Positions 6,114 to 62,600 of a stretch of 64,000 bases of DNA are shown here, piece by piece; the first letter of the stretch is position 1, and each line of letters opens with the position of its first letter. Origin of the DNA: Henricia sp. BOLD:AAB3569. Its lineage: Eukaryota > Echinodermata > Asteroidea > Spinulosida > Echinasteridae. Below the pieces are notes generated by a model. It made no database searches. It was not told where the DNA came from and saw nothing but the letters and a program-made list of their open reading frames with translations. The stretch covers positions 2,046,001 through 2,110,000 of the forward strand of contig JBBELK010000024.1 in assembly GCA_037783545.1 (NCBI GenBank). Direction: 5' to 3'. Both the position numbers and the translations under genes were made by a program.

Positions 6114-6144
<31 letters not shown>

Positions 6145-28900: not shown

Positions 28901-31900
28901 TATGAAAATATTTGAGGTTAAAATTTAACCTCAAAGTTCTGACTTTCCTTTATGTATAGATTGATATCAGTAGACATCAGCGATGATTCTAGTCTAATGG
29001 TTGCTGGGTTTGCCGATTCCTGTATCCGTGTTTGGGCACTGACACAGCGTAAGCTTCGTAATATGAAACCAGGTGGCGATTTGGCCGTTATTGACAAGGA
29101 AGCTGATGATATTATGGAGAGAATCATGGATGATAGGTAAATAAGAGCACTGTTAAAGGAGATTGTTCTGTTGCGGTACCCGCAGCTACATGATTCGAAC
29201 CGGCTGCTCAACACCGGCCAGCTTGGTGGTCGTGTGGTTAAGATGTCTGCCTAGTATGTAGGAGGTTGTGGGTCCGAGTCCCACCCGAGCATACTATGAA
29301 GTTTTCTCAGTGTCTCGGGGAAGCACTGAGTATATAGTGTTAATTAAGTTATCTCGGGTAGAGCAAAACAAACTATAATCGAGCTTGTTCAGATTTTTCC
29401 AAAAAAGTGGATTTTGTTCTAACCTACAATCACATAAAATACCTCCCCAAAATACTATCTATCGGAAGAAACCAGGAAATTTGCAATCTCCAATTTGGAT
29501 GTGGAAACAAAACGTTTGGTGTAATCACTGCACTGCTTTATGTAACCAGATAAATTAGTTTACAAAACATCGGTGGTTTTTTAACGATATCCATGAAAAT
29601 ATACTGATTGAGAGCACGAAATTCCAGAATGGTAATGAGGAAAATATGACACATGATATGGTATCAAAATCTCAACATCCATGGGAAAAATGGGGGGTGG
29701 TGTCGGGGTCGGGGGTAGGGGTGTTCAAAATTTGATAGCTCAGCTCATCCCAAGTTTGGTTGTTTAATTTCAATGGTGATTAGGCACTATACCAAATATT
29801 GCGTTAATAGACAAACCCACATGTTTTCTAAATATCCTACAGGACAGCATCCGAATGCCGCACACTACTAGGTCACAGTGGTGCTGTGTACTCGGTCAGC
29901 TTCAGCCCTGATAGGACCTACATCTTATCAGGCTCAGAGGACGGTACCGTCAGACTGTGGAGCATGTTCACCTTCTCTAATCTAGTGTGCTACAAGGGCC
30001 ATAACTACCCTGTATGGAACGTTCAATTTGGGTAAGCTATACCGAACATAAAAGAAATAACAATTTTCAGTTTCATCAAAATTGAAAATGTCGTTTGTAA
30101 TTAAATTGCGTTGAAATATCCACATAACAGTTTTATTATGCATGACTGATTAAAGCTTCAGTGTGCTGAAAATTCCCAGTCAGATCAGCTGCTTTTTTAA
30201 ATAAAAAAGTGGATAAAATGTGTGCGTTTCTTTTGTTGCTCGGTCCTATAATAATAAATATTGTGTCACATTCAGTCCTTATGGCCACTACTTTGTGTCT
30301 GGAGGCAATGACCGAACTGCCCGCTTGTGGACAACTGAAAACTACCAACCCATCAGGCTATTTGCTGGTCACTACTCGGATGTGGATGTAAGTAAAGTTC
30401 TCTTGGTCATTCTAGAACTGAAGTCTAGCCTAAAGTAGGCCTCAACATTATGAAAATATCGGGCAAGTCAATCTTTGCTTAGTCCTGATTTTGTAATGGT
30501 ACATGTATTGGTTTTTTGGGAACATATTGAACAAAATTTATAGTACACATGCAATGATGATTTTCATTTGTTTTTCTTAAAATAACTGTCATGACTGTGT
30601 TTGCATGCTTTGTGTTATTGTCATTTTACGATCAAAATGTATTGAGCATCATAAAATGTATTATAACTTTTCTTTTGCAGAATGTTTTGCAGAATGTTTT
30701 GCAGAATGTTTTGCAGAATATTTGTGTTCAGAAATTGTTAAAACACCTGCAGCCGATTTTACGACAAATTGCGTAGCTTGCACAACTTTTGAAAATGGCA
30801 TAAGCCCCATAGGCTTGCATGTAATTACCACAGGAATGTTGCGCAGCTAACGCGATAAAAAGTTGCAGTGCGTAAGGATTCGTGAAATTAGCTGCAGTTG
30901 TTTGTGTTTTCAAAATGTAAAACCTGTAAAACTTATCAGGATAAACTGTGTAATTTCTGTTGTAAACCTTGTGTAAAAGATAGGTCATTCCATGTCAAAT
31001 CACCCAAGGTATTGAACCTGGCCATCAGATTTTAGATTTTGATGACATTTTTTATTTTGATGAAAATTTAGATCAATTTGACCAATAGTTTGGAAGATAC
31101 AGCCCTAAATTTTACAGCCCCCAAAAAGGGTATGGCCACCTACCTATGTACTCTTAAAATACCTTAGGAACTACAGAACCAATCTTCTCCTAATTTGTAT
31201 TGTTGTAAGAAGAATTTGACCAAATTTGCCAAATATTTTTCAGTTTTAAGTATGTTGGGTGACAGTACATTTACCTTTTTATCTTTGCTATTACTTTGAA
31301 ACTGATAAGATCTTTAAAGAGACATGTTTTTAAATTTTCGAATTGTTGATTTATTCCCCCTCTGTGATAGTGTGTGAGGTTTCATCCGAATTCAAACTAC
31401 GTTGCAACTGGATCGAGTGACAGAACGATTCGTGTGTGGGATTTACAGAATGGAAAATGTGTTCGAATCATGACGGGTCACAAGGTATGTGCTTATACGT
31501 TTGCAACTCCTAAATTACAAATTGTGGTTTTGTCAAACATTACTTTGAGTTTACACAAAAACCTTACTGAAAGTGTTGATAGCAACGGTAACAAACACAA
31601 CATGACTATATTGCCGTCCAAGGTAGTACTTTTTGTAAGAAATTAACTGATGTTTCCGAAAGAAAATGTGTACACACATTTTTTCCCATTTACTTAAAGG
31701 AACGTGTTCAGATTTTTCCAGGAAATGGATTTCGTTTTAACCTAAGAATCATACAAAACTTTCCAAAATACAATCTATGGGAAGAAAACGGGAATCTTCC
31801 AATCTACAAATTGGGTGGTTTTGACGATATCCTTGAAAATATACGGACTGAGAATGCACAAATTTAAGAATGGTAATGAGAAAAATACGACAAATGATAT

Positions 31901-36592: not shown

Positions 36593-39370
36593 CTAATGCT
36601 TTTTGCAGTAATAGCGTACAAACAAGTACTTGTAGGTGCCGAGGCAGGGGTTTCCAAACGTGTAGTTGTTGGCTTTAACGCTACACCACTTCTTGCCTTC
36701 ACACTTGCGCTTCACAATCTACAAGAAAAAGGGGAAAAAATGAATTTATGGCGTGAATTCTTTGAGAAGGAAAAGTGAAGACACGGTTTGTGAATAAATA
36801 TTTTTTGTTTGTTGATGAGTCATTTGTTTAATTGTCCCCATCTCCTTCCCACCCAATTGGTTATCCAAATAGGTTAATGTACACATTTGCAACAACCAAA
36901 ATGTTTACACGACAAGACAAACTTTACTCGGTGTTAGTGGTAAAAAAAACCAGTTTGTTAATTTATTTCTGTTCAAAATGGTACTTTTTTTGAAGAAATT
37001 AGAACTAAAAGTATTGTGTGCACATCAGGGTCTATCACAAGTTCAGAGCCGATAAAATCACAAGTCCGTGACAAGTCCCGCACAAGTTCGTCACAAGTCC
37101 AGTAACAAAAAGCAAAGGATGAACACGCACAAAAGAGTGCCTAAGACCCAGGGTGGACTTGTGAGGACTTGTGATGGACTTGACTACTACCCTGATGCAC
37201 ATTCATTTTTTAGCATTCGATTAAAAAAAAACCATGCATGGAATTTAAAGGTTTTCTGAAGCATTACCACATCCATGAAGCTGGAATTTCTTCAAGTAAG
37301 TTTACCAACATTCTGCCTTGGATATGTAATGTTGTTATTCCATGAATTAGTGCAAAGTTTCATCTTGCAAATGATACCTGTTTAATCCCGTTCTGAAAAT
37401 GCAAACTTACCGATAGTGCATTAGCAGCTTTGCAGTTGTAATCCTTGATATGCTTGTGTTTGCAGACTGCCTTTCCATGTACACGACCATAAAGAGCGTA
37501 GTCAATCTTGATGACGTAACCAGACCCACAGTCAAGACCAAGCTGTTTACCCTGGCATACTTGCTTCTGCTGCATGATCTGATAGTCGCCTATAACAGCG
37601 AGATTTTGTATTTGTCGTAATGTATCGAACGTTTTTTGGAGGTGAGTAAATAAACAGATTTCAAATAGACCTTTAGGACTGGCGGCCATGACAGGGCAGG
37701 TTATTATATTGAAATGTGACAATAGATCCACAAAGTGCCTACTCATGCATTACACACGGTGACAATGTGACTGCCCCCTGTCATGGCCGCCTATGCAAAG
37801 GGTCTGTTAGTGGAATATTTTTGATGATTGGACATAAAACATCAGTTGACATACTTGCCCGTGCCACTAATTATAAATAATTGTGGCAACATTTTAATCA
37901 ACATTTGACTGGAAAATCTTACTGAAATGGTTTGTACTGTCCAATACAATGATTTTGCCCAAGATATTTTTATAAGAAATGATAATTGAAGATGAAATTT
38001 TATAAATGTGTGCACATATATATTTTTTGTTACAAAAGAGCCATCATTAAAATTAATCAAGGCCCCTCATGATGTCAAAGTTGGGTCGAGGGAATTTGGA
38101 GTGAAACAATTAACACTGAAAAACACAAACAACTTCGGTGGAAATTGTTTCTGTGATTCTGTGATTTTCAGTGCATTGTTTCGCTACAAATTCCCTCCAC
38201 AAAGAGAATGACGCATGTTGTTTGAGAAAAGCAACACACATCAAACTTGGGCACAAAAAGGCTCAGTATAAATTCAGCCTAATATAACAGCCTAATATAA
38301 ACTCACATTTGTAGTACACCCTCAGTTTGTTGGATGCCCCTTTACAGCAGTCACTGAAGAAGCCATTATTGACAGGCACTTTACACCAGCTCTTGCCCTG
38401 ACATTTCGTCTGAACAGCCAGCAGGGCGTTTGGGGCGATGCAGTCTTCTTCGCTGGATGAGCTAGACGAGCTAGACGAACTTGACGAACTAGATGAGCCG
38501 CAGTTTACGCCACCGAAACGACCGTAGTTGGCATCAATGACGCGGATTCCCTTACCGGCCGGGCAGTCGACGCGCAGTTCCTTGTTTTCGCAGGCTTCCT
38601 TTACGAGAGGTTTCTGTATGCCTGACGAAATAAAAGTTAAACCAATAAAGTAAGAATATGTCTTATGTCTTTCTAGATATTTCCAGGGAATAGAGTACTA
38701 AAGTGGAAAAGTCACTCTTTGTGTTGCCAAGGTTACTGGGTCTACACAAAAACCAGTGAACTGTTTCCATGCACTCTTGATTACCATGAAATGTTTAGAC
38801 CCAGTTACCCTGGCACCGACACACTTTAGTAGACAACTGGGAATTAAATCATTGTCTGGGCTTCATTGCCATCTTAAATTCAAAACGTATAAATCTGGCT
38901 TTAATAAAATTCAAGTAAACACAATATTGTTTCTCTAAGTTTTGGTACCAGATTTCCATTTTATGTGTATACACCATATTAAATAGTTGCAATCTTGTAA
39001 GACCGTTTCTTTGTTCCTTGAGGACACAAGGGTTGCAAATTTTGTGCTTACATTGTTGACCATTTTGAATAACAATTGCCCTACAAGATGGCATCTATTC
39101 GATACGGTCTATTTATCAGGATCACTGCCCAAAAATTCAAGCCACTTTAACACAAAGCAGTTGAATATTTCAACTGACTTTTAAATTATCGAAATGATCG
39201 TGCAATTTTATATTTATCATCATTGTTATTTGCTGTATCGCGCTTTGAGATATTTTATATGTAAAGCGTGTTTTACATAAACTTTATTATTTATTATTAC
39301 CTGGGAAGTATCCAAGCGAAGACTCCACCACATTCAATATCAGAATGGCAGTAATAATGCAGATCTTCAT
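36593..39370 (-). CDS. Secreted two-domain SUEL-type (rhamnose/galactose-binding) lectin, 'lectin A'
   Basis: Exons on the minus strand: 39301-39370, 38307-38621, 37411-37589, 36593-36718; 690 bases, 229 aa, all junctions in frame. SUEL lectins bind rhamnose or galactose on glycans and usually act in egg, coelomic or immune fluids. Residues 1-23 include a signal peptide (MKICIITAILILNV). Two SUEL domains follow, about 24-128 and 129-229, with the hallmarks ANYGR and YALYGR, and in the second FGNPCLGTYKYLFVRYYC. The first domain carries 15 consecutive Ser (residues 66-80) in a surface loop where the paralogue has a short Cys-containing loop. The second domain is split by a phase-0 intron. The domains correspond to the last two domains of lectin B. 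The exact sugar cannot be read. Confidence 0.93.
37026..37194. mobile_element. hAT-like MITE in lectin A intron 3
   Basis: It starts CAGGGTCTATCACAAGTTC and ends ACTACTACCCTG, inverse-type ends. The flanks GTGCACAT and ATGCACAT agree at 7 of 8 positions, consistent with an 8-base target duplication. Related to 48131-48334. Confidence 0.7.
37664..37806. mobile_element. Inverted-repeat element in lectin A intron 2
   Basis: AGACCTTTAGGACTGGCGGCC with CATGACAGGGCAG at the left is answered by GCCCCCTGTCATGGCCGCC and GCAAAGGGTCT at the right. Same family as 18422-18566. Confidence 0.7.
38088..38198. mobile_element. Foldback element in lectin A intron 2
   Basis: GAGGGAATTTGGAGTGAAACA and TTAACACTGAAAA are answered by TTTTCAGTGCATTGTTTCGC and ACAAATTCCCTC. 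A single arm of the same type occurs near 20505-20540. Confidence 0.65.
38452..38496 (-). repeat. 15-codon serine repeat inside lectin A
   Basis: All 15 codons are Ser but mixed (TCN and AGY), with a partly periodic TCT-AGC-TCG order. It replaces the loop between the ANYGRF motif and the EEDC motif. Use of both Ser codon families argues that the tract is retained as protein and is not just recent slippage. Confidence 0.9.
38969..39113. mobile_element. Inverted-repeat element in lectin A intron 1
   Basis: Same family as 21703-21838 and 28065-28212, here with CTTTGTTCCTTGAGGACA and TTGCAAATTTTGTGCTTACA, and the end GATACGGTCTAT. Confidence 0.7.
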
Positions 39371-45819: not shown

Positions 45820-48800
45820 CTAATGCTTTTTGCAGTAGTATCGTACAAACAAGTACTTGTAGGTGCCGAGGCAGGGGTTTCCAAACGTGTAGTTGTTAGC
45901 TTTGACACTACACCATGACTTGCCTTCACACTTGTTCTTCACGACCTGAAAAAGAAAAAGAAAAGTTTGTTTAATTCATCTGTACAACAATAAATGGTGG
46001 TTGTCCAGTCACAAGGCATAACACGGCCAAAAGAATGGGTTTGTTGCAGTTAAATAAACAGGATTTAAAATGCACAGGAATTATATATTGGTGATATGAG
46101 AATATACCGCACGAGTCATGAAAATTTGACTCGTTATTTTCTTATGAGCAATCATATTGTCACTATGCTTTATGCATGAGCAGATGCATTACAAATCTAT
46201 TGTCGCATTTAAATAAGAAAACTTGCCCCCTAACATGACTACCAGTGCAAAGGGCCTATACTATACTTACAGAAAGGGAATTAGCAGCAATGCAGTTGTA
46301 ATCCCTGATGTCGTAGTGTTTGCAGACATCCTTTCCATGTACACGACCATACAGTGCGTAGTCAATCTTGATGATATAGCCAGATCCACAGTCAATGGAC
46401 AGCTTATTGCCCTGGCATACTGACTTGCGCTGCATGATCGGGTAGTCACCTAATATATGGTGAAAAAAGAAACACAGCTATACTTTGACAAAAAAATTGA
46501 AGAGGCCGAGAGATGTAAAGTGTGTAAGAGCCACTGAGGCAGGATGTGCCACTCTGCATGAACACCTGTTATGGCTTCCATAAGAGCCACTGAGGCAGGG
46601 TGCGCCACTCTGCCTCTCTGAGATCCTGCACTTCATGGGCTGTTTGGGAGGCTTGTAGATCCAGAGGTCAGCTCATTCCATCAATCATCCCATCAGCTCA
46701 TTCAATCAGATTGAGAAAAAAAAATGGGTTTTCCCGAAAGTCCTTAAGTACAGGATTCTCCAAGGAACAGGAGATGTCACATTTCATTGCACTGTAGGAA
46801 TCACTGAAGCAGAACAACCTTGATTCCAAAGGGATGGTTGATCAGTGCCTTGTTATCTACATCAGGCATGCAACTGTGTCATTATAAAAAAAGAGGAAAA
46901 TGAAAACAATTTTCCAACTTTGTGTTTTTTTTATTTTCAATGGGACAGATGAGGAAACAAAAAAGAGGAAATCAGCTGATCAACTGAAAAGTGGCATGCC
47001 TGAGTCAACTTCACTGTATTCAACAAACGGTTCTAATCGAAAATTGCGTTTATTTTTTGAGCAAACTGTTTCTGTATATTGAGCTCTTGTGGACCATACA
47101 CACATGCATTTGATCGAAAGACTTGTCAAACTCACATTCATAGTATATTCTGAGGTACTTGGGCGTCTCAGGACAAGGGTCACTGAAGAAGCCATCGTTA
47201 GCAGGCACTTTACACCATCTCCTGCCCTGACATTTCGTTTGAACAGCTAGTAGGGCGTTCGGGGAGATGCAGTCTTCGTCGCAGGGTGAGCCACAAACGT
47301 CTTCACCGGCGAAACGACCGTAGTTTGCATCAATGACGCGGATGCCTTTTCCAGCTGGGCAGTCAATCTGCAGATTTGTGTTCTCACATGCATCCTTGAC
47401 GATGCCTTTCCGTTTGCCTGATAAGGTAAGAGTTAGAATGAACCGTTTATAACTGGGTCGATTTGAATACAGTACAGTGTGTAATAATTAACCGTGCTGT
47501 TTATGCACTATGGGAAGCACTGGAGTTATAGCGGATATGGATTAATGTTTAGGGCACAGTGGTATATACTCCCTCAGGTTTTCCAATACAAATGCAAGTT
47601 TCATTGGTGGTTTATTTTAGGCGCCATACAAAATATTGCGATAATTAAACATTGAAAATTTGTTCCTGTACTGTTGCGCAAGAGGCTATGCTGTCAAGAT
47701 GGACATTCATGCAGTGGGGGAAAAAGATGTTAACACTCACACAGATAAAACACTTGTAGATACTTAAGGGTTCCTGCACAAGGCTCCCCAAACAGGTCAC
47801 TGCTAGCCTTGAATGAGCAGTCTTGATTCCCTTCGCACTGATCACGAAGCACCGTCAGGGCATTCGAGGCTAGGCACTTTGTTGACAAGATCTGATTACT
47901 TGGGCAGATGTCATTGCCTGGCAGTATGCGACCGTAGACAGCATGGGCTATGTGAAGTCCGTAGCCTCTTGGGCAGGATAAGCTGAACTGCTCGTCTTCG
48001 CATACACGTTTCATTTGGAAATTGTCCTGGGCTGGAATGAATTATCATAATTTGGGAATTAATTTGTAAACATGTTCTGATATCATTAATAACTTCTTAT
48101 TCTCTTGGTAGTGGGAACCTTCATATAAAGCAGGGTTGTAGTCAAGTCCAGAGCCGATAAAATAACAAGTCTCACACAAGTCTGTCACAAGTCCAGTAAC
48201 AAGAAGCAGAGGATAAACACGCACAAAAGAATGCCTTTGTTGGAGTTCTTTTGAATAGCTTGTGACTTGAATTAAGACCCAGGGACTTGTGGTGGACTCG
48301 TGAAGGACTTGAGATGGACTTGGCTACAACCCTGGTGGAACAAGTTCAGAGTTTCTCTTCCTGAGAGTTTGTTAAAAAAATATTTACTTTTTTTATGACC
48401 AATTTGTTTTTCATCAGTTTACTCACCAAGGCAAATCACAGGAGTGCAAACAGTTTGCACCGAGCTGGCTTCCAGTTCCCACGGACCAAGCGGGGAAAGC
48501 GTGACACAGATGTACGGAAACGCACCGTCAGTGCAGTCGACTTGCGACAGATCGAAGGAGAACTGCGCATCATAGAATGAAAACTGCTGGTCGTCCGTTA
48601 GCGTCTGGGTCTGATCAAGCGTGTGAATGACACCGACAATGGGGGCGGTCTTGCCCTCGCCCTGGGGGCCAGTTGCGAGGAATGCGGTCAGTTGGAAGCG
48701 ATCGATCGGGCCAAGTGCGTTGAGCTCTTGAGCGGCGCCCTCTTTGGGTGTGAAGTATACGCAGAGGGACACGTCGGCTGCGCCGCCATCAACGATAGTG

Positions 48801-51044
48801 GCATTGCGAGGTATGTCCACATCAACTCTGTCTAGATCCACTTTTAGGGCCTCTGGTAAGAATGCAGTACAAAATCAAGTTTCAAGTTTATTGAAGAGTT
48901 TTTAAATAACTTGTTTTAATGTATATAATTACGCATCAGGTAAAAGAAGTTCAGTGATGCTGTAACCACAATTTTTGACATGGGGCCAATTTCATAAAGC
49001 TGTTTAGCCAAAACAATTTCTTAATACAGAATTTATTTTCTTTGCAAAAATGGGTTAATTTAGCAGTAAAAATCATGTGTATTAGAATTGACTGGTGTTC
49101 TACTCTTGCTAAGAATACAAACTGACATAAAAATTTTGACTCCTAACTACTGACTGCTTACTACTGAACTAACGTCTTTCTAAACAAATAATCCTTTATA
49201 TATGCAGCAAAAACTGTGCATAAAGTTACTTTTAGCGTTTCAGGGGCCATTCAACCACTTACTGGGTTTGCAGATGATAGGCACACACAGTGTCACCACG
49301 GAGGCATCACTAGGCTGCCAGTTATCAGCTACTTCATCAGCAGGGCCAAGAGTAACACAGGCATAGGGGAATGCATTGTTGGAGCAATCAACATTGGTCA
49401 GGTCAAATTCAACGTCTGAATCAAACAGGATCACCTGTGAACAATAAAAACAATCAGTTTTAAGTTTTCAAGAAAAACTGGGATTTTGATGATCCATATG
49501 TCATTTGTTGCCCTAGCTGTTCTTTGCCTTCCACAGGCTTTTGTTTATTTTCTAATGAAAGTGCCGTTTGCAAACAGTAGCTTCCAATATACACAATCTT
49601 TTATATTTTATTTTTGTGACCAGTTCTGGCAAAAGGAGTTGGATGTCGCACAGCTAGTCTGGGCCAAATTTTCGCGACCATTTAAGCAGAAACTAGTGCC
49701 TGTTGCATCCATAAGGCAAACAAAAATTAAAATATGTTTAGCGTTAGCCCGCGCGTCACTTTCAACCCTGCACGTCAAAGCTTTTTTTCTTCAATGGCCA
49801 AAAAAAACCCCAAAAATATATATATCTTTAGCGTTTACAAACGCATTCAAAGAATATCGTCACAACCCCATTGCCATTCTTGTGACCCGCTGCAAGACTT
49901 ACACGGTCTATAACGGGGTGTTTGTTTAGATTAAACAGCCACTTAGAAATCCATGGAAATAGCCCCCATGATTTTTGAAATCTTTTATTGTATTACACAA
50001 CACACATCCAAAGGATGTAGCAAATATCCCTACAATGGCACATACCTGCTCACCATCAGTGAGCGGTTGTTGCTGATCCGCGTCTGGGATGACAGCCTCA
50101 GTCACTGCAGTAGGGTTTGAGCCCTGGTCGTCAGTTGCCAGAAAGACCACCAACTTGTAGCGGTCAGTCGTAAAGCGGTTTAGAATGATGCTCGTTCCGC
50201 TGCCTGGCGTAAAGTAGACGCAGAAAGCCACGGGTGTGATGCTACCGTCGTAAATGGTCGCATCTTTTGGGTTGTCAATGCGGACGTGATCTACTACCAC
50301 ATCTGAGAAATAAGGTGTATAAATGACATACTTGATACTTACGAGTAACGTACTCGCGAAACATGTTTGACCAGGTCTCAGTGGCTTTTAATTGACACTT
50401 TTGGACCAACTCGCAAAACCTGTTTGACCAGGTCTCAGTGGTTATATGACACTTTTGGACTAACTCACGAAACCTGTTTGACGAAGCGCCAATTTCATGG
50501 CACTATTTAGCACAAAAAAATGGGTTGCCAGTCAAAATCGTATGTGATGTGTATTTACTAATATTGTGCTACTCTTTCTAAAAACACAATTTGAAGAAAT
50601 TCTGTACTAGAAGCAAATTTGTGTGCTAAACAGCGCCATGAAATGGGCCCCGGGTCTCACATTGCCATGGAATACATGTCAATGTGAACCTCAGATTGTT
50701 TCATCTAACCTCTACTTTTAAACTCATAGTTCAGCATATTCCTTCAAAGTTTAAGATTTTTCTCCACAACATTTTGGACCTATAGAAAAGGTTCAAAAAT
50801 GAGAGATTTCAAGAAAATTCAATCACTTGTGCAAATCACTCGCCCCGATTTGTGATGATGCTGTTGTTTGAAATATTTGCAAAATGCAAAAAACTGCTAT
50901 CCTTCCTCCAAATAAACTCAAAAATTCAAGCTTCCACAGATTAAATAAAACAAAATCAGTCATACCTAGATAGCGAAGCCCTGCCAGAGCATAATCTGCC
51001 ACACACACAACCAGAAGTCCAACAACAAGGCTGTAGATATTCAT
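45820..51044 (-). CDS. Secreted lectin with two unrecognised N-terminal domains and three SUEL domains, 'lectin B'
   Basis: Minus-strand exons: 50966-51044, 50046-50302, 49263-49434, 48427-48852, 47741-48031, 47136-47417, 46271-46449, 45820-45945; 1812 bases, 603 aa, every junction in frame. Residues 1-26 include a signal peptide (LVVGLLVVCVADYALA). Then come X1 (about 27-169) and X2 (170-311), two copies of a domain I cannot name, and SUEL domains at about 312-408, 409-502 and 503-603, ending FGNPCLGTYKYLFVRYYC and KKH. All inter-domain introns are phase 1, so each domain is a movable module. X1 and the last SUEL domain each have one extra phase-0 intron. The last two SUEL domains correspond to lectin A. 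SUEL domains bind rhamnose or galactose; the role of X is unknown. A TATA box lies upstream at 51149. Confidence 0.92.
46125..46262. mobile_element. Inverted-repeat element at lectin B intron 7
   Basis: It shares CATATTGTCACTATGC, AAGAAAACTTGCCCCCTAAC and GTGCAAAGGGCCTA with 18422-18566 and 37664-37806. It ends close to the exon boundary at 46271. Confidence 0.6.
46500..46690. repeat. Dispersed repeat in lectin B intron 6
   Basis: CCACTGAGGCAGG(A/G)TG(T/C)GCCACTCTGC occurs twice, followed by CCAGAGGTCAGCTCATTCCA. The same phrases lie inverted at 2030-2160. Confidence 0.55.
48131..48334. mobile_element. hAT-like MITE in lectin B intron 4
   Basis: The ends CAGGGTTGTAGTCAAGTCC and GGACTTGGCTACAACCCTG are inverse copies. 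The interior AGAGCCGATAAAAT and AACACGCACAAAAGA is shared with 37026-37194. Confidence 0.75.
48427..48852 (-). other. Domain X2 of lectin B (single exon)
   Basis: One symmetrical phase 1-1 exon encodes about 142 residues. Landmarks: DLDRVDVDIPRNATIVDG, CVYFTP, DRFQLTAFLATG, LTDDQQFSFYDAQFSFDLSQ, VDC, FPYICVTLSP and VCTPVICL. The alternation of hydrophobic residues suggests a beta-sandwich. Five cysteines match those of X1. I do not recognise the family. Confidence 0.8.
49263..50302 (-). other. Domain X1 of lectin B (two exons)
   Basis: Exons 50046-50302 and 49263-49434 encode about 143 residues. Landmarks aligning with X2: VRIDNPKDATIYDG, CVYFTP, DRYKLVVFLATDDQG, LTDGEQ, ILFDSDVEFDLTNVDC, FPYACVTLGP and LCVPIICKP. 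A phase-0 intron falls between LTDGEQ and VILFD; X2 has no intron there. Confidence 0.8.
49486..49929 (+). other. Open frame of 147 codons inside lectin B intron 2-3 region, probably not a gene
   Basis: A plus-strand frame opposite the intron between the two X1 exons begins MMIHMSFVALAVLCLPQ. It shows no recognisable domain and no exon-like flanks. Composition is AT-rich like surrounding introns. It is recorded because it is the longest unexplained frame here. Confidence 0.2.
50354..50485. repeat. Tandem ~50-bp repeat in lectin B intron 1
   Basis: About three units contain TGTTTGACCAGGTCTCAGTGG and GACACTTTTGGACTAACTC. These are the same units as in the foldback element at 18706-18877, some 31 kb away. 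Confidence 0.8.
50486..50652. mobile_element. Inverted-repeat element, 'GGGGCCAATTTCAT' family
   Basis: GCGCCAATTTCATGGCACTAT at the left is answered by AACAGCGCCATGAAATGGGC at the right. Lectin B intron 1. Confidence 0.7.
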
Positions 51045-52397
51045 TGTGCCGACAAGTTTTTCCAATAACTTTGCCACCAAACTGCTGCCGGATCTTTTCA
51101 CAGCAAAGACACAAACCTATATTGATTTCTCCAAGACTGTAGAAATGCTATTTATAGTGTTGACTTTCTGTGATGTGTATATTGATACACAGACAGAACT
51201 CTATGAATAAGCCATCACATACTTTTTTGGGCCACGCTATCTCAAGTAGATTCATAGTATACTATCTTTTAAAGGATGCAATATGGTTTTATTTAAAGCA
51301 GGCTTCAAGTGTCTGTGAATTTCAAATTTACCCTTAAATCGTCATATTTTTTCTAATGCATAGAAAACAGAAACGTCACCTTTCCTATTGTCCTTTGAAA
51401 GTAAGAACTGTCAAGGATAAACAGATGTTTATTCAGTGCTGTGAGTGCTCGTTGAGCTTGGGAAGGGGATAAATTGCGGCCTTGAGCCACAATTGATGCT
51501 CTTTTACTGATATATTTTTTGGAGTATGTTCTCAATTTGATGCTATACCAGCTGGTAGGGCAGATGGCCTGTTTTCTGAGTGAGTGCCCGGGAAAAATGC
51601 CTAGAAAGCTAGTAATTCTGTATTTGGAAAAATTACTGGAACAAATCGATAACATCAGAATTTGTTTCATCATGTATGTTTTAATGTACCGGTAATATGT
51701 GTTTGAATTTGGATAATAGAATTAAGTAACAATAAAGACATGCTAAAGCACTTTTCGACTTGCACTCAACAGAGCAAAACGCAAGAATGGCGTGGTGAAA
51801 ACCCGCGGCGTGCTTGGACACGGCCATTGTTGCGTCACTAGTGTTTAGCAAATGTTGCCTCTGAAGCTAGCAAACGTTTGGCAGTGCTTAAGGTTACGGT
51901 CTCCATGAAATAGCCGAAGCCTCTGTTAGCACAAAATCGGCTGCTAAACAGCTCCATGAAATTGGCCCCTGGTCTTGAGTTTGTCAGCTTCAAATTTCCC
52001 ACTCTTGTGGATCAACTGGTTGTGAGTTCACCAACTTCTAGATTGTGGATCGTCACATGCCTTGCAACAAGATCAACTACTCCACAGCTTTCTACTCAAC
52101 TATAGCCTCAAGTTTGTCAGCTTCATTCTTCCCGCCCTTGTGGACCATCCACAAGCCTAGATCAACTGGTTGCGAGGTCACCAGCTTCTTTGTGGATCAC
52201 CCACATGCCTTGCAACAAAATCAACCAATCCAAATTAAGTTTTCTAGTCAACTAATCTTAAGTTTGTCAGCTTCATTTTCTTCCACCACGTAGATCATCC
52301 ACATGCCGAGCAGATCTCAATCATCAACTGGTCCTGAGTTCGCCAGGTTTGTGGGTCATCCACATGCCTTGCAACAAGATCAACCAATCCAGGGCTT
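51045..52397. other. Lectin B promoter region and TMEM42 3' flank
   Basis: It holds the TATA box at 51149, a partial 'GGGGCCAATTTCAT' element ending about 51972, and a tandem array (51967-52455) that runs into the last TMEM42 exon. The minus-strand open frame at 51353-51673 has no family features. Confidence 0.5.
51149..51156 (-). promoter_or_regulatory. TATA box of lectin B
   Basis: The minus strand reads ACTATAAATAGC, a consensus TATAAATA, 105-112 bases upstream of the start codon. That leaves room for a short 5' leader, typical of an abundantly and tissue-specifically expressed secreted protein gene. This is motif evidence only. Confidence 0.6.
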
Positions 52398-52455
52398 TCA
52401 ACTAGTCTTGATTTTGTCAGCTTTCTTCCCACCCTTGTGGATCATCCACACGCCT
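51967..52455. repeat. Tandem array of ~135-155 bp units overlapping the TMEM42 stop
   Basis: The phrase TTGTCAGCTT(C) with a CCC-CTTGTGGATCATCCAC-type stretch recurs at about 51975, 52111, 52265 and 52410. The last occurrence is the coding end of TMEM42 (on the minus strand, WMIHKGGKKADKI). Each unit also has CACATGCCTTGCAACAA(G/A)ATCAAC. Confidence 0.75.
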
Positions 52456-54621
52456 AGAATGATGAACGTGGACCCCAGCATCCATGTTGGTGAAATAGAC
52501 TCCCCAAACACCAAGAAACCAATAATTGCCTGCAAAAAAATAAATACAAGAAACAAGCTTAAAGACACATGCTCGTCAGCAATGCGCGCGTGCCAAATTC
52601 GTGCCACGAAATACGCAGCTCCATGCCTTTGCTATTGAGCTGCGTATTTTGTGGCACGAATTTGGCGAGACAGTCATTGTTTGAATACAAAAAGTGTAGT
52701 TCTGGTTCTTGATCCCAGATTTGCGTCCAATACAGGCAATTAACACATGGGCTGGGTTCTGTCTGTGTGTAATTTCTCCCTGAAAACTGAACATATTTGT
52801 TCAGTGATTTAGGAATCCTTTATTTCAGTACATGTACATGGATTAAACAAAGTTGATTTGTTTGGCCAATGAGCTGCCAAACAGTTACATGTAATGTAAC
52901 CTGACCCCATGGCACATAGCTAGGTCCCACAAAAATGTTTGCGTGTACGTACTAATTGGAAAGACATTTGACAAGTGTTAGCTGTGCGATTAATAATAAT
53001 AATAATGACATAGCATTTGTAAGGCGCACAGTATCTAACACCGTTATTCAAAGGCGCCGAGGCCATTATTATCGCTGCCCTTATGAAATCACCAGAACCA
53101 TTTCGCTTCAACTAGGTGGCAGCCTGGCCAGTGGCGCCGACCCTATCAGCACTTAGATTGTGGCATTCCCCTGACAGCTCCCCAATTATCCCTGATTACA
53201 ATGTCAGGTTCAAGTATGTTATATAACTGTGCAGGCTGTGTCTATTTAACATTGAGTACAAAACATATTTTGCTTTTAGCTTACAGTGAAAAACAAATTG
53301 GCCGAACTGTTGGTGATCGTAGCCTCAAGTGAAGACCTCGCGAGTTGTAGAGACTTGACAAATAAGGTCCACATGAGAGCATTGAAGAAAAATAAGAAGC
53401 AGAATGATATCACGCGAAGAACAAGTGTGACCTGTCGAGAAATAAACAACAAAATTCAAAACTTTGTTGGTGTACTTTTCTTATTATCGCTGTACTTATG
53501 TTCCCCAAACAAAGTGCAATAAATGAAGAAGTAAATAAACTAAATCTGCTCACAAACGGTAACTAAGAGTACGATTCACTTTTTAAATCTTGTTTTGCTG
53601 GAAAATTTCTCTGACCTTTATAAATTCAACATAAAGGCCTGTGTAATTTTTAGGAATCCCATTGTTAACATGTGTAGTAACCTTTTCAGTTTCATATACA
53701 TGTACTTTCTTTGCATTGTTGTTATTGGAATGTTTTATTATAGGCTTATTACTATAGCAGGTTTTTACACTTCTACAAATATAATTTATGTTGCATTTTT
53801 AGGAGACAATGGGATGTGGCATATAGAGCACCACAAGATAGTGTTGCGCAATCCTGACAACTTAAAGTAAAACCCTCAGTTACAGAGAGTACCATGGTCG
53901 AGTGGTTTGGTCACTTGCAAACTGCAGAAACACAATAAGGTTCTAGCTGGGTTCAAAACCATTCAAGGTACTTTTGTCCTTTAAAAGCAAGGCATTTGAC
54001 CCTAATTGCTCCATCCTTTGGATGGGATGTAAAGCCGCGGGTCTGATGTCTTGTGTAATGCACTATTAAAGATCCCAGAGCAATCATTCACAAAGAAGAG
54101 ATTCGATCTAGCTTGGCTGCTAAAGCCAAGGTACCAGTGCACCCCTTACACATCTCGTTGTTTAGGTGGCTTGATACATATGGGTGGCACCATGCACTGG
54201 CAGCTGATCGCGATGGCCAGAGGCACTGGGGAAATCCCCTTGATCTTCACAAAAGAATGCTCTGGGATCTGCAAAATGCATTACACAACACACTGGTCCA
54301 TCAGCTTTACATCCCTTCCGAAGGATCGATGGAGCAAGTGTGTTTAAGTGCCATGCTCAAGGGCACAGGTACCACGGCCGGGTGTCGAACCTGCATCCTC
54401 AAGTTTTCACCCGAGTTTTGCAGGTCAACGACTTAAACCACTCGACCACGGTACCGCCGGTGAATTACCACTGAGCAATCCGGCATAATTTCCATGAATG
54501 CATTTTCTTTATGACTTTGACAAACACGTTCAATCTGTTCTCCTGACATGGCCAGTTTGGCAAACGCTGACGCACACGCAGCACAAAACCCTGCAGTTAC
54601 AGCCAAAGTGAAGCCCAGCAT
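52398..54621 (-). CDS. TMEM42: TMEM42-like multi-pass membrane protein
   Basis: Minus-strand exons: 54469-54621, 53285-53431, 52398-52529, giving 432 bases and 143 aa in frame (human TMEM42 has 159). Function is not established; the family resembles EamA/drug-metabolite transporter half-proteins with four membrane helices. Visible: helix 1 with CAACASAFAKLAMSGE, which parallels human [20 protein letters not shown]; helix 2 around NALMWTLFVKSLQ; helix 3 around NSSANLFFTAIIGFLVFGE; helix 4 around MLGSTFIILGVWMIHKG, then a basic tail. All introns are phase 0. The middle exon is short and lies in a region crowded with repeats. The exon 1 donor could be at 54469 or one codon later. Intron 1 carries two inverted SINEs, and the 3' end overlaps a tandem array. 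Confidence 0.86.
52575..52672. mobile_element. Foldback element (second copy 60760-60855)
   Basis: CGTGCCAAATTCGTGCCACG with AAATACGCAGCTCCATG is answered by the inverse GCTGCGTATTTTGTGGCACG. A relative occurs in DNAJC10 intron 4 with CCAAATTCGTGCCACGAAAC. Lies in TMEM42 intron 2. Confidence 0.75.
53886..54108 (+). mobile_element. tRNA-derived SINE, plus orientation, in TMEM42 intron 1
   Basis: The head CATGGTCGAGTGGTTTGGTC resembles an A box and CTGGGTTCAAAACC a B box. The body has GCTCCATCCTTTGGATGGGA followed by TGTAAAGCC, GTAATGCAC and AAAGATCCCAGAGCA, shared with other SINEs in the window. Confidence 0.7.
54124..54460 (-). mobile_element. tRNA-derived SINE, minus orientation, in TMEM42 intron 1
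   Basis: On the minus strand the head ACCGTGGTCGAGTGGTTTAA and B box GCAGGTTCGACACCC are clear. The body has TTCGGAAGGGATGTAAAGC and AGATCCCAGAGCATTC. Its head ends only a few bases from the TMEM42 exon 1 donor, so it inserted right beside the splice site. Confidence 0.75.
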
Positions 54622-56648
54622 CTTATATCAGCCCTTAATGGTTCTCTCGTTCTAGTTAAATCCAGGCTGTCTGCATCAACACTACAATGAAAAGATAAAA
54701 ATGGTGATTAATAGGCTACTAAATTTGTGTCATTGATGGAATTTTTTTTTTCGTTCGGCAAAACCGGTTTTTTATTTTGTTTTCGGTTAACCGGTTAAAC
54801 GTCCCGTCCATACTCGCGCTTGACCATTGAGAAAATATGATTGAAAAAAAGCTCCTAAACTTAGGTTTTTCCCAGTTAATTCACACTTTCTGAATTTTCA
54901 GGATTGGAATCAACTGCCATGCAGCAGCAGCTGCATAGGATGACGTCAAAATTTAATGTTGTTTGTTTCCCGACTCCAACATGCCGTCAGGTATGTAAAA
55001 ATCTGTTGTGACCTGACAAACGCCCTCTCGAGTCCAACCTGCAAAACATGGTGTATTTAGTTACAAATTAAGTGATTTTACAAATGTTTGGAAGGGATAC
55101 GGTTTGAAAAATAAACTTCCTTGTGCCACTTTTATGACAAACTTTGTTATGCTGGCGATTTTCTGGAAAATTTAAAGTAACATTCTGCAAGCGTTCTTCT
55201 TCCTTTAACTGTGCATGGCTTGAGTGCGTCACGAGAGGGCGCCCTATACGGCATGCATGCGTGCATAATGCATGACGTGTACAATAAGTGTGATAACGTA
55301 CCTTATCAGAAAGTTTTTCTTTTATCTCCTCCCGAGTGCAGTGAGATTTATTCCCTTTTTTGCGTGGTCATGGTGTTCATGTCTGTCTGTACACGTAAGT
55401 TTAATTAGGCCTCTTAAAAAAAGGTGTGGCCAAGTAATTTCGGAATATTGTAGGCCTATCCATTCCTTGCTCTATGGCCTATCTGAGACTGTGCTAAATT
55501 TGTCGGTAAGAAAGCATGAAAAAGTGAACGGAAAGTTGGACCGGCACATGTTACATGTTTTAACGTGAGTTTGCCGGTCGACGGTCAGGCCAGGGTGAAG
55601 TCAACTCGACCGTTGCGTTGTACCAAATTGACCGTTTTACCAAAAGGCGCCTTTGCTTTCATGAATCCTGTGCTGGCCCGCGCCCCATGAACTTTTCTTG
55701 TTCAACCATGGAGGTAGGAAAAACGCACACCGGTCGAGTTGGTACCATGGTTGCGTTGGTACAACGGATAAGTTGGTTCGAGTCGAGTTGGCAAACGGTC
55801 GAGTTGACCTGCCAACGTGTGCACGCAAGTTTGTGGTTGTGGCCGGTAGAGGGCGCCCTATCAAATCGCCATATATAATTTCAATATAATATAAAACATG
55901 CACGTTTGACAATCATTCTGTTGTTTAAAAGATCAATTGGGAAAAACCGATTATTGCACACAATTCTTGAGAAGAACGACTGCGTGGTATATATTTTTTT
56001 CAAAGTTTGATTTTTTGAATAACTTGCGATTTCTGTCGCGTATAAAATAACTAAAGTAGAGAATCCAACACTGATTTAATTGCGGCCGCCATGTTTTTGC
56101 GATCGACTGAAAGTGACTCTTCCCATGTTCTTGGGTCAATATGAATTTGCTTTCACAAAACATTTCTTGTACATTAACTTTGTTTTTCATTTTGAATCGG
56201 TAAAATCCCAAACTTATGCATATCAAATAAGGGGCTGTCAAAAGTTGTCAACATTTTCACGATTCTACAAAGCGTAGGAAGAGGGAGGGGAAAGGGGGGA
56301 GGGGAGAGGGCGGTTCGAGGCCCGCCTAGGACTTTACATGCACTGTAAAATGTTGACATTTCATGGTAGTGACAAGAAATGTTGATGTATTTCGGGGGGA
56401 GGGAGGGGGTCTTGAAAAATACTACAAAATGTTGACAACTTTGGACGACCCCTAAATATCATTACATGTGCATAATGTCCTGTCTGCCAAAATGCATTGT
56501 CATTGTGGATGTACACTGTATTACAGCATAACAGTATGGCATGACAATTTAAAGTTGTGTCAATTATTTCCGAAATCCAGGTACTTGATGCCAAGTTGTT
56601 TGAAGAAAGGACACAAGAAGATAAACCTAGTATCTCCACTCGCACAAA
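54622..56648. other. Divergent spacer between TMEM42 and DNAJC10
   Basis: The two genes point away from each other. The region holds a fragment of the hAT-like element (54749-54800), a copy of the repeat also at 1611-1720 (54937-55040), two GAGGGCGCCCTAT phrases (55235 and 55850) and GCGGCCGCCATGTTT near 56084, a YY1-like motif in a small GC-rich patch. TGACGTG at 55273 matches the ATF6/XBP1-type core but is far upstream. No exon was recognised. Confidence 0.45.
56231..56454. mobile_element. Inverted-repeat element just upstream of DNAJC10
   Basis: GGGGCTGTCAAAAGTTGTCA and ACATTTT at the left are answered by AAAATGTTGACAACTTTGGA and CGACCCCT. It contains purine-rich G tracts (GGGAGGGGAAAGGGGGGAGG). 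It lies about 200 bases before the DNAJC10 start codon. Confidence 0.75.
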
Positions 56649-59600
56649 ATGGAACCGAGGACAAAAAGGCTGTATCATGCTATGCAAATTAAATGTCAGA
56701 GGTCGTGGGCCATGAATTTCCTGATCGCCACTGCTGTACTAAGTATTGTCACAGTCGTTTGCCATTCCTCTAAGGATTACTACGAGCGTCTTGGAATTGA
56801 AAGAGATGCCAGTACAAAGGACATCCGACGAGCATTCAAGAAACTTGCTCTCAAGATGCACCCAGACAAAAACCTGGTGAGAAAACGCCACAATTTCAGA
56901 TGAAACAATTTCACTTCTAAAGTTAACTTTTTACTGGCAAATTAAGTTTGGTATGAAAAAAAAGAATGAATGACAGCTAAACTTAGGCCTTTTTTCCCAA
57001 ACAATGCACTGTTCTTTTTTTCTTATTTGTACAATTTTTTTTTAATTTACATCTTAGATTTAAAAGTAAAGTACCTTTTTACATAATTTTGTCACACATG
57101 TTGTTGCATTTCAATGTCTCATTTCCATTGTGCAAGTCACAATAAATTGGAAAACGGCTAACAGAAAAATGATTTGTGTTTTTGACGGAAATTTTTTAAT
57201 TAACTAAGCTGTCAATTTCCAACTGCTATTAAAAATCCAGACATGACTGATATGGATAAAAAAACATATTTTTAATTAAAAATAATGTTCAAAATTTGTA
57301 ATTTTAAAATGTTTAATTCTTCTTTCGAGTACATGTACACAAACCAAGAACATGGTTAAGAAATGATTGATTTAACTTGTTTGTTAATTTTTACCTTTAT
57401 GCACCATGAACATTGCGTAAAATTAACATTTGCCGTTTATTTCTGTGGTCCAAATGTTCAAGTGCACTATGCATATTTAGAAAAAAAATCAATGCGGAGA
57501 ACTTGTCCACGTGTCTGTCTGAAGCTTTGGACACGTATATTAACTCGTTAATCATGGCTTTCTGTTAAAACAACAGCTGTGGTCTTTGTGCGATAGTGAA
57601 ACATTTGCCTAAAAATACAAAGAAAAGTAATAATTGACAGTAATTGCTCATTTGCTCTTTACTGATGTGGGAGACTTTCATTTACAAAAATACCTGTACA
57701 TATGCATATTAAGCTGTCGGATTAAAACAAATCTACACAGTACGTTATTGTATTACTGTATTGTATTGACAGGAAAGCCTTACTGTAACAATCATAACAA
57801 ACGCCACAACTTTCTGTCCAAAATGGTACATTTTGTAGGATGTTAACACGTAATTTAAAAAAATGTATGCATACTGTACTCATTTATTTTGGCATTCGTT
57901 TAACACAAAAAATATGTATGGATTTTTAAGGATTTCCTGAAACATTACTGCATGTAAAATATCTAGAGGATACATGCAGCACAAGTACAGTAGTTCGCCA
58001 ACTTTCATTTTTGGACATGTTGGAGATGTAATTTCTAAAAGGTTTCATTTGCAAATGAAATGGTGGACATTTATGTAAATCATTTAATGTGCCATTCTTG
58101 TCAAATTATGTATTATACACTTTTAATACACTGTATTATGTAAATGAAATTTGGAAATTATTTCCTCCACGACTTCAACTTCCTCGTATTAAGTAACTCC
58201 AAATTGAAAAGAAAATTCTCATTTTTTTATGCATTGCAAGTTGGTCCGATGTGACATCACAATTTTTGTGATTGTAGCATTATGTTATAAACACATGTAT
58301 TATTGAATTTTAAAGTGTTTTCTAACCGTCTTGTATGTAAGATAATTTAGTCCCAAATTTCTTTCGTTTCTGCCCCCAAAAAAGGAATTTAGCTTGGCCC
58401 GGTGCTTTGCTAAAAAATATTTTTAGCGATTTTGGATTGTTCATAGGATTTACTCAAAGACCGGTAAAAAGGTCCCACAAAATTCAAGCCTGCCTGGTCA
58501 GGCTGGGGCACAGATATCTATTAACAACAAGATAGGAAACAGAGGCCGTACGAGCATAACCGCGCCTTCTCATTAGCATACTTTTGGGCACCATTTGCAT
58601 ACTTTTGGGCACCTCATTTGCATGGTTTTGGGCACTTCCCCATTGAACTACACGTAAAACCTCTCGCATGCGCACTTTCTCAATGTTTGTGATGACCGCG
58701 CGTGTTATGTTCGAACACAAAACGCGCTACACGCACACGCGTTCCAAGCTGCCTGAAACCGGTTAAGGTGATGTGCCACTCAATAACAGTCGTTTCTTAT
58801 CTTGTTGTTAATAGAAATCTGTGGGCTTGGGTCTTCACGGGCCAAGACTTAACCATCTTGTCGTAAAACTTGTTGTTTCCACAGGATGACCCTAAAGCAC
58901 ATGACAAGTTTGTAGAGATCAACAGAGCTTATGAAATCCTGAAGGATGAAGACCTTCGCAAGAAGTATGATCGGTTTGGTGAGGAGGGTCTTAAGGACCA
59001 ACAGGGACAAGGCAGATGGAATCGCTATGAGAGCTGGCAGTACTACAAGACTGAATTCGGTAAGATTATTGGGTGGGGGGGTGGGGCAGGGCAGGGGGAG
59101 TCTAATGCTACAATATGCATTGTTCCTCAACAGTCATTCAGTTGTAGCCAAATGGATCTTTTGTTTGCAAATGTGGTTACTATTACGTACTTAATTGACT
59201 CAAACAAAATGTACAATACACTTACCATTGTATTTATAAAACAAAAGTCAGTGTTTGCAAAAGTGTGTTTTACTGATGTTCTACATGTACTGTAGCTGTT
59301 GCTTTAAGTTTTTAACTGGAACCCAGACATTTGATTGTGCAATATTTTATCTTATTGATGTATAGTGCTTCAGAAGAGGTGCTGGCTCTGTTGAAACCAG
59401 CGTTGCTCAAAATGTGACAATAGGTCATAGTTTGCAGGTTTTACTGTATGCAAAGCTGCCAACTTACCATATTTTGGAGGAAAATTTAAAAATTGGTTGA
59501 CCTCGGTCTTCAGACACATCTAGATATCTCTGTGGTTAGACAATCTTTTGGCAAAATACGGAAGGGTTGGCAGTTCTGACTCATGTATTTTCAAGGGTCT

Positions 59601-62600
59601 CTCTCTCGATGCTTTTTGGTATTGTCTATCTATAGAAGATCAAAATAACATGCATGGGTTTTTCTATAAAACCCATTACTATAAATTAAGTGTCCAGCTT
59701 TGGTGTCCCCCGCTACATTTTACATCTTGTTTTTGTAAATTCAGGACACATTCTTTAAATACTTTCCATCTCAAAGAGCGAGTACATAAAGTACAATTCA
59801 TACAAAATGGTTTAAAAGCCATTTTAATGATTTTTGTACGAAAAATAACACATATCGGGTGTAACGGGGGATAACAAATGTCACACTTTTGGACCCCTAA
59901 TTTATAGAAAGACCCGCATGCACTACCAGATATCAATTCCAAAAGTGGTGTGGTATTTTTATTTATTTTTTTTATTTTTTATTTTTTATGTTTTATTTAT
60001 TTACAATTTTAGGTCTTTATGATGAAGATCCAGAAGTTGTTACTCTCGGCAAGACAGATTTTGGTAAGTGAATATGTTGGGATTTGCTCCTCTGCCATTC
60101 TGTATGAAAATGTAAACGTTGTATGATTTATGTATATTCTCATCTTCATTGGTGCTTTGGACTGTTTGGTGTAGTTTAATATTAAATAGCCAAAAGTACA
60201 AACACAAACAAAGATATAAACAAGATAAAAACATCTTCCTGAGTTGTCATGTCATACATGTACCCCGTAGTTGGCTCGATAATTCCAATTTTTGTCCACG
60301 GTCTCAACTAATTTTGTTTTTCTTGTTGATTATTCTGAAGTTTATTTTCAACAATTACATACTTGTACTAATTAAGCTTCCAGACAATGGAACAACAGTA
60401 GCCATCTAGTAAAGTGACCAATAGCTTTTTGTATCTTTTTTTTATAACCGCAGAGCAATCAGTGTTCGGTGAAGACATTTGGTTTGTGAATTTCTACTCA
60501 CCGCGATGTCACCATTGTCATGACTTGGTCCCAATTGTAAGTATCATCCAAGACTCAAATAATTGCATTACAAGTGCTTTCAGTTGTCTAATTTTTGGGA
60601 TAATAAAAAATTAAGCATGCAACTTCTTCCGAATAATCTTTAATTTCAAAATGTTTTTCTTCAAGTAATTCTCAAAGTTGAAGTTGCACAATAGTTTACA
60701 ACAGAATACTACGTGATAAGTACCTTATTTAATTTTTCTTCTTAAAGGCAGAGGCTTGTCGATGCGCGCATGAGGCCAAATTCGTGCCACGAAACACGCA
60801 GCTCTATAGCAATAGCATGGAGCTGCATATTTCACGGCCTCACGCGTGCATTAACGATCCTGTGCCTTTAAAAATTTATTTTTCGAGTTTGATTTCACCA
60901 AAAGTAAAGAGTAAAAATATTGCAGAATATTTATTGTAGAAGTTGGTGGCAATCTATTTTTTCCATGCTATTTTATTCAGCTGGCCAAGTGAATGACTGG
61001 AGTATTATTGTTAAAAATGTGAAAGATGTTCTTCTGTGCAGACAATATTGTATTGACCCCCTTCGAACACGTGCGAATACGCCATTTTGGGAGTCAAATA
61101 ATGCCGAGTCATTGTGGAAGCGATGCGCGTTGTGTGGGTTTCTGGTTGGCGTAACGCGGTTCAATTCACCAATGGGAGACTAAGCATAGCGCGTTGCGCG
61201 CGCTATGGACACACACAACACGCACGCACATTGCTTCCAGAACAACGCGGCATTATTCGACTCCCAAAATGACGTCATTGGCACGAGCTCAAAGCATCAG
61301 TGGTACAAATTCGTATAATAAAAATATTGTCCAATCTTGTCCAAACAATATTTTTGCCTGTCAATACTGCATTCTATCAATGGTCATGTTGTATTCATCA
61401 TTACATGGTTTGGTGTGTGAAATCTTGTACAGTGGCGTGAGTTTGCTAAGGAAATGGAAGGTGTCATTCGGATTGGAGCAGTCAACTGCTTCGATGACAA
61501 CCCTCTTTGCACAGCCCAAGGGGTGCGATTCTTCCCAACGCTCAAAGTTTATCCCAAGGTAAGAAGACAGTATGGCTGGTTACTTGCATGCCTTGGAGTA
61601 ATTCTCAATGAATTGAAATGGAAGTACATGTAAAAGGAAATAAAATATTCATTTTCATGTTGACCTCTGTTCAAAAAAAGGCATGCAGAAGTTTCATTAG
61701 TAGTATCATTTGCAGAGAGCTCCCAAACCCTCCCGGATTTTGGGGAGGACATCTGGGAAAACAGGTTCATTCTGTGACTCCAAACACATCTAAACAAATC
61801 CCCAAGGTTGTTAATTGACAATCCAGGAGGGTTTTTATTCATGTTAGGACTAAAAAAATTAGTAATTTTCCGAAGAATCTGTTGCAAAATCTGGAAGGGT
61901 TGGCAGCTCTGCATTCGTATTATCTTTGAATTATTTTCTAATATAAAAATCTGTACGAATGAATTAGTGCATTTCAAGGTAATGTGTCAAGTTATTGCTT
62001 GACTTTACGATAATAGAAAGAATTGCCCGACCATGAACAGTTTCATAATTTTTGTAATACCGGTTTGTTTCAAATATTGGTGTTAACCGTTTCATTTTTC
62101 TGACTGTTTTTAGTTGTATTTTAATTTCCGTAAAAAAAATGTTGTGGTTGTGTACAGTTCAGGAATTTCAACATAAATTGTATGCATTTTGTTTTTATTT
62201 CTGTTCAGTGTTTCAAGTAAGACAGAATGTTATATTTATACATTGTATATTTTGTGTGAAAGTGCCTACTCTGTCCTAGTATAATGTACAACTTCAGTAA
62301 CTGTGTAAATGAGAAATTGCCTGAACATGTTTTTAAACGATGCACTACATGTACATGTAATTCCTTTTTATTCCATTACACAGAGCTGGGTATATTTTGG
62401 TAGTTCAATTTACACAAAGTGAAATGACATTGATGTTTAAGCAGTGGGGTTTTAACTGTTGCTGGTCAGGAGCTCTTAAAATTACACCCATGGGGGCGTT
62501 TCCCCATTAGACCACACAAAACTGCAGTAAATTATGGCCAGTCTCTAGTAGTTTTTAGACTCCTCGAAGCCTTCCACTAAGTTCAAGCTGGACGGTTTTG

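Follow-up and report, generated by a model that had tools for sequence, protein, structure and literature searches.

A gene here called lectin B, predicted on the minus strand of a 64,000-nucleotide stretch of the Henricia sp. BOLD:AAB3569 genome (assembly GCA_037783545.1, contig JBBELK010000024.1, positions 2,046,001 to 2,110,000 of the forward strand, hereafter "the window"), places two tandem modules, X1 and X2, ahead of three SUEL lectin domains of the galactose/rhamnose type. X1 and X2 are very probably divergent members of the SURF (sea urchin fibrillar) family, carrying its four conserved cysteines and an extra one. SURF modules are tied to the fibrillar collagens of echinoderms and to connective tissue able to alter its mechanical state within seconds. 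Lectin B is a known module in a new combination: a SURF-containing lectin, not a collagen. On balance we lean toward reading the whole as a matrix-anchored adaptor, in which a SURF pair, kin to the modules of a mosaic with HYR, EGF and Methyltransf_FA domains, was joined by phase-1 exons to the N-terminal side of a three-domain SUEL lectin.

The lectin B gene and its duplicated modules

The splice model comprises eight exons (51045-45820, minus strand) whose seven introns are all GT-AG and which join into a single frame of 603 residues. Exon 1 (50966..51045), whose start is fixed by the ATG at 51044 alone, encodes a signal peptide (MNIYSLVVGLLVVCVADYALA...) and ends in phase 1. X1, 143 residues long, is shared between exon 2 (50046..50302), with its N-terminal part, and exon 3 (49263..49434), with its C-terminal part and four of its five cysteines; the 142 residues of X2 lie entirely within exon 4 (48427..48852), which begins and ends in phase 1. 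Run over the window, a SURF-family hidden Markov model (HMM) that counts X1 and X2 among its own rows picked up these three exons with independent E-values (iE) of 6.5e-16, 7.8e-12 and 9.8e-29, respectively. The module borders are in phase 1, and a phase-0 intron lies within X1 and is absent from X2. Then come SUEL1 (exon 5, 47741..48031), SUEL2 (exon 6, 47136..47417) and SUEL3, whose N-terminal part is in exon 7 (46271..46449) and C-terminal part in exon 8 (45820..45945). SUEL is the only Pfam family above its cut-off in the protein (PF02140, SUEL_Lectin; 197 bits against a cut-off of 31.4, E-value 5.2e-59, in three stretches). Neither a Gly-X-Y triple helix nor a COLFI domain is present, and the chain ends with SUEL3 and a stop codon at 45820. 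The most hydrophobic 19-residue windows begin at residues 3-6, and a hydropathy scan finds no hydrophobic segment at the C-terminus. Beyond the signal peptide, every 19-residue window has a mean hydropathy of at most 1.35, which is why we expect a secreted, soluble product.

The two modules are 45% identical over 139 residues (E-value 1e-39), with a Smith-Waterman score of 307, whereas 500 shuffles average 31 and reach at most 53. Their cysteines, five in each, stand at matching places (28, 103, 112, 136 and 141 in X1; 31, 107, 116, 136 and 141 in X2). A preliminary description of this DNA had proposed, for the span 48427-50302, a duplicated domain of about 142 residues aligning along its whole length, and that span coincides exactly with exons 2 to 4 on the minus strand. 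The duplication stands far above the shuffles, and the quoted motifs and five equivalent cysteines are there. Equally sound was its picture of a secreted beta-sandwich module, outside Pfam and unusual as a partner of SUEL lectins.

The genome assembly searched (740.7 Mb, 2104 contigs) holds a second copy of lectin B on contig C103, which we read as the other haplotype. It too encodes 603 residues, its eight exons show no insertion or deletion, and each of the seven introns retains its splice sites; blastn segments are 87-99% identical across the 8 kb compared. The copies differ by 27 synonymous and 9 amino-acid-changing substitutions (9 of 603 residues), and the resulting ratio of nonsynonymous to synonymous rates (dN/dS) of 0.095 points to purifying selection that acts on the reading frame, also within the X domains. 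Of the residue changes, X1 has six, the SUEL half two and the signal peptide one. X2 has none, against seven synonymous differences; X1 (dN/dS 0.14), with its six, appears to be under less constraint.

Relatives of the modules and their probable place in the SURF family

Searching the genome with X2 yielded 22 matches at E-values up to 1 on seven contigs, lectin B itself and its C103 copy included. Six of the seven on contig C37 lie between 3e-15 and 0.0012 (the seventh at 0.116), and those on C126, C185, C451 and C386 are weak (0.05-0.9). The matched loci hold arrays of domains in which the same four cysteines recur. In nine loci an iterated HMM picked out 45 domain stretches, a count that includes allelic copies, partial stretches and three pieces of the lectin B allele. 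An HMM of 22 array domains, built without X1, X2 or C37, scored X1 at 37.2 bits (E-value 1.2e-7) and X2 at 36.5 bits (2.1e-7, both per million sequences), compared with a best of 8.0 bits among 4,000 shuffles. Conversely, a model made from X1 and X2 only listed 21 of the 22 array domains, the best at 30.2 bits (12.7 for the best of 2,200 shuffles), and hhalign gave a probability of 98.4%. An alignment of 28 rows was assembled from three window pieces of X1 and X2, 23 of 24 full-length hits and two C37 pieces added by hand, leaving out the C103 copy of X2 (the 24th full-length hit) and the other partial hits. Numbered along X2 minus its first residue, the four cysteines C106, C115, C135 and C140 are present in each of the 26 rows that have letters there, those of X1 and X2 among them; the majority of rows had been picked as full-length hits.

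What these relatives are is suggested by C126, where 20 X-related domains, by eye mostly of one exon each, occupy 765.9-781.9 kb. A VWC domain stands directly ahead of this array (765.3 kb; PF00093, 5.9e-11). Beyond the array, short Gly-X-Y pieces begin at 783 kb, a long stretch of collagen sequence lies at 788.4 kb (PF01391, 2.1e-32), and COLFI C-propeptide exons follow at 808.2-812.9 kb. Because the position between VWC and collagen helix is the one described for SURF modules, and because the domains carry four cysteines, we take the array domains to be SURF modules. X1 and X2 are homologous to modules that, in an apparent fibrillar procollagen of the same genome, are flanked by the VWC domain on one side and the triple helix on the other, and their 143 and 142 residues fall within the roughly 140-145 of SURF modules; the preliminary suggestion that they belong to no known domain has to be abandoned. 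The SURF modules of procollagens 1alpha, 2alpha and 5alpha are, like X1 and X2, of about 140 residues, with four conserved cysteines and in tandem. Unlike those procollagens, lectin B has two copies only, each with a fifth cysteine, and a phase-0 intron interrupts X1; it lacks both VWC and a collagen helix, and SUEL domains come after the modules.

Elsewhere on C126, COLFI matches recur, all in one orientation, at five or more places (near 810, 868, 965, 1060 and 1153 kb), with SURF-type matches between them at 766, 776, 910, 995 and 1105 kb, and the region of about 765-1153 kb is probably a tandem collagen family. On C451 and C386, SURF-type array domains lie beside a long minisatellite-like repeat (VASLHPGVNGYLQGLQPLSACVRLLGLHTPQGV...) that is open for 876 and 589 residues on the two copies.

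The C37 locus is of another kind. It combines repeated HYR domains (all three exons tested match PF02494), an EGF-like domain below the Pfam cut-off and roughly five SURF-type domains, four of them split over two exons (nine stretches in all), with Methyltransf_FA domains on both sides. We infer that this mosaic is one gene, which might be fibrosurfin-like. A tree built from 26 domains, including two of C37, places X1 and X2 nearest each other (96/87) and unites them with those of C37 (100/98), separate from the collagen arrays. Because of this grouping, the modules of lectin B are more likely to derive from a non-collagen mosaic of the C37 type than from a procollagen. Lectin B in this respect resembles fibrosurfin, an interfibrillar protein of sea urchin connective tissue, which also bears SURF modules outside a collagen. 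SURF-type modules are found in this genome in three settings, namely collagen arrays, the HYR/EGF/Methyltransf_FA mosaic and a lectin. Within the mosaic locus, which occupies 90-118 kb (minus strand), the repeated HYR exons are by eye near-identical and about 0.4 kb apart, a recent tandem amplification.

Several points weigh against this assignment. The SURF name was given on position, cysteine count and phylum rather than by direct alignment, and the VWC, array, helix and COLFI of C126 are presumed to form one gene from the parts read on either side of 789-808 kb. The array set was gathered by iteration seeded with X1, X2 and one C37 domain, which makes the HMM test not fully independent. X2 is just 14-25% identical to array domains, and the reverse model scored only 8 of 22 of them above 20 bits. 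The array model itself listed five of the nine C37 stretches (four at E-values up to 0.0014, one at 28) and failed to pick up four N-terminal pieces, from which we gather that such short pieces carry weak signal. Of the 26 rows, 3 have the fifth cysteine, a C37 domain making up the third, and the branch linking X1/X2 and C37 to the remaining domains is long (2.33 changes per column, in a tree whose root is arbitrary).

The AlphaFold2 model of X2 (predicted local distance difference test score, pLDDT, 87.4) has the fold of an immunoglobulin (Ig)-like beta-sandwich of generic arrangement. Structure prediction and fold search, both put forward in the preliminary description, thus gave a confident model of the expected beta-sandwich and weak, near-equal matches to named Ig-like families: CARDB, macroglobulin, NPC2 and Spo0M appear with weak scores, and rows of Spo0M, Brr2, transglutaminase and CARDB recur among many of similar rank. 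Integrator, the top match of a first model, was not among the best 50 rows with the better one. The Pfam check proposed at the same time found no family above noise, as did searches of NCBIfam, PHROGs and PADLOC with X1 and X2; AAA_7 (E-value 0.1) was set aside as chance, and the PDB sequence matches protocadherin-15 (0.028), Numb (0.13) and Adhesin A (0.41) as noise. For SURF modules themselves, searches of Pfam and the PDB found no model and no solved structure. Viral and prokaryotic contigs, phages and plasmids yielded no relative of X in a search part of which saw only short shared peptides; we therefore see no sign of horizontal transfer.

The lectin half and the possible role of lectin B

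A search for SUEL domains gave 22 matches on eight contigs, of which only C24 (lectin B) and C103 also carry X2 matches. No SURF-type domain was found on C96, C239, C181, C369 and C836 (one stretch of 5.7-9 kb each, taken at a SUEL match or upstream of it, on five of the six other SUEL contigs, C329 being left out), where the best chance hits had iE of 0.37 and 0.034, the latter over 29 residues. SURF and SUEL were thus seen together only in the lectin B gene and its haplotype copy, a count to be taken as a lower bound since X2 detects distant SURF domains poorly. A literature search, which covered few subscription papers and is weak evidence, paired neither fibrosurfin with SUEL nor SURF, sea urchin and collagen, all three together, with a rhamnose-binding lectin. 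Other secreted matrix or adhesive proteins of echinoderms with SUEL modules, such as the urchin alpha-tectorin-like protein and sea star Spf1, are mentioned in the excerpted text of PMC10057474, where the SUEL partners in adhesive mosaics are vWD, EGF, C8/TIL and discoidin; in lectin B the partner is SURF instead. On C96 (591-600 kb), a Methyltransf_FA-like frame, noticed by eye near 593 kb, is followed by two SUEL matches without SURF.

The nearest PDB relative of lectin B is the sea urchin lectin SUL-I (5h4s; E-value 2e-66), which likewise has three tandem SUEL domains. SUL-I consists of 284 residues with three carbohydrate-recognition domains, and Glu7, Asn71 and Asp76 are among its sugar contacts (PMC10377782); lectin B is longer by two SURF-like modules at its N-terminus and differs in contact residues, mostly in SUEL1 and SUEL3. 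In latrophilin-1, the loop 2 Lys and the Glu that follows the first Cys are both essential, the E42Q change having dramatically reduced or abolished binding (PMC2430599, in excerpt). Aligned with 5h4s, SUEL1 keeps Glu, Tyr and Lys (in CE, YGR and KYL) and has Ser and Glu at the places of Asn71 and Asp76. SUEL2 keeps all three and Asp76 (CE, YGR, KYL and DPC), with Asp for Asn71. SUEL3 keeps Tyr, Lys and Asn71, and has Asn at Asp76 (GNPC for GDPC) and Gln for the Glu after the first Cys, the same change as E42Q. By these residues, the strongest candidate for a sugar site is SUEL2, and SUEL3 is probably non-binding. Lectin A, the adjoining gene (36593-39370, minus strand), has a signal peptide and two SUEL domains and lacks X1, X2 and SUEL1; its last SUEL domain shows Gln and Asn changes identical to those of SUEL3. 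Its first SUEL domain contains a run of 15 serines (CGSSS...SEEDC).

How might these halves work together? We tentatively propose a matrix-anchored lectin adaptor, a mechanism we hold as a leading possibility rather than a probability. The SURF pair would dock lectin B in the SURF-bearing collagenous matrix, and the SUEL part, mainly SUEL2 and perhaps SUEL1, would bind glycans resembling galactose or rhamnose that are carried by matrix proteoglycans, host cells or microbes; glycan recognition would in this way be held within the collagenous matrix. A matrix-binding arm was one of the roles guessed at in the preliminary description, and it gains from the relatives of X apparently being in matrix-type proteins; for the pathogen- and egg-binding arms also guessed at, nothing here speaks in favor. 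Two points count against docking and read-out: we know of no binding partner of any SURF module, and the altered sugar contacts of SUEL1 and SUEL3 mean that lectin activity could be weak.

Lectin B might instead be an ordinary soluble SUEL lectin of the humoral, egg or venom type, with the SURF pair as a spacer or oligomerizing arm that does not dock to collagen. This is possible, if on the improbable side: SUL-I, the closest structure, is soluble, lectin A manages without X, and the odd number of cysteines per module would permit an intermolecular disulfide and hence a dimer, but a mere spacer is unlikely to retain a 140-residue fold under purifying selection as strict as that on X2, and the relatives of X in this genome resemble matrix proteins. 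A more specific role, as an interfibrillar cross-linker of mutable collagenous tissue with SURF on the fibril surface and the lectin on proteoglycan or other matrix glycans, seems to us unlikely. A chain with lectin and SURF would possess both ends of such a bridge, and SURF modules have been placed on or between fibrils, in the 5alpha N-propeptide that remains on the fibril surface, in cleaved 2alpha N-propeptides and in interfibrillar fibrosurfin, with a role in variable tensility suggested for the molecules that bear them (PMC10817530, in excerpt). The fibril-surface glycans named in that excerpt, however, are chondroitin sulfates, not an obvious SUEL ligand, and SUEL3 is predicted to be inactive. 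It is very improbable that X1 and X2 form an independent Ig-like family of CARDB, NPC2 or macroglobulin type merely resembling SURF: the sandwich is generic and its weak fold matches include such families, but none of these, nor Spo0M, is among the sequence matches listed, and X1/X2 and the SURF-type arrays find each other in forward and reverse tests and share their four cysteines. Just as improbable is an artefact joining X and SUEL exons of different genes, for the joins, though predicted, give one continuous frame with matching phases and a single signal peptide, and exon order and all seven pairs of splice sites are the same in both haplotypes.

To return to the adaptor, one may speculate, though we consider it doubtful, that lectin B represents an unreported class of echinoderm matrix adaptor, its SURF pair plugging a lectin into fibrils so that glycan recognition serves the interfibrillar cohesion of mutable collagenous tissue or matrix-bound immune capture. 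Were this true, SURF would be a general fibril-docking module used outside collagens. As a small, soluble protein with two SURF-type modules, a lectin read-out and a confident fold prediction, lectin B would be a practical reagent for SURF binding.

Other features of the window

A dispersed short repeat, GCTGTTTAGC...CCATGAAATTGGCCCC, occurs in both orientations in the introns and flanks of lectin B (48969-49022, 50475-50518, 50611-50664, 51932-51975 and elsewhere) and, by eye, upstream of lectin A at 42.7 and 41.2 kb; it is probably a mobile element of this genome. A tRNA-Thr(AGT) gene lies at 29220-29292 on the plus strand according to ARAGORN and Rfam. The remaining features were recognized by eye: a PTPN23-like tail (4516-7908, plus strand), a TAF5-like WD40 region (about 32 kb, plus), TMEM234-like exons (52401-54627, minus) and DNAJC10-like exons (56631-61500, plus).
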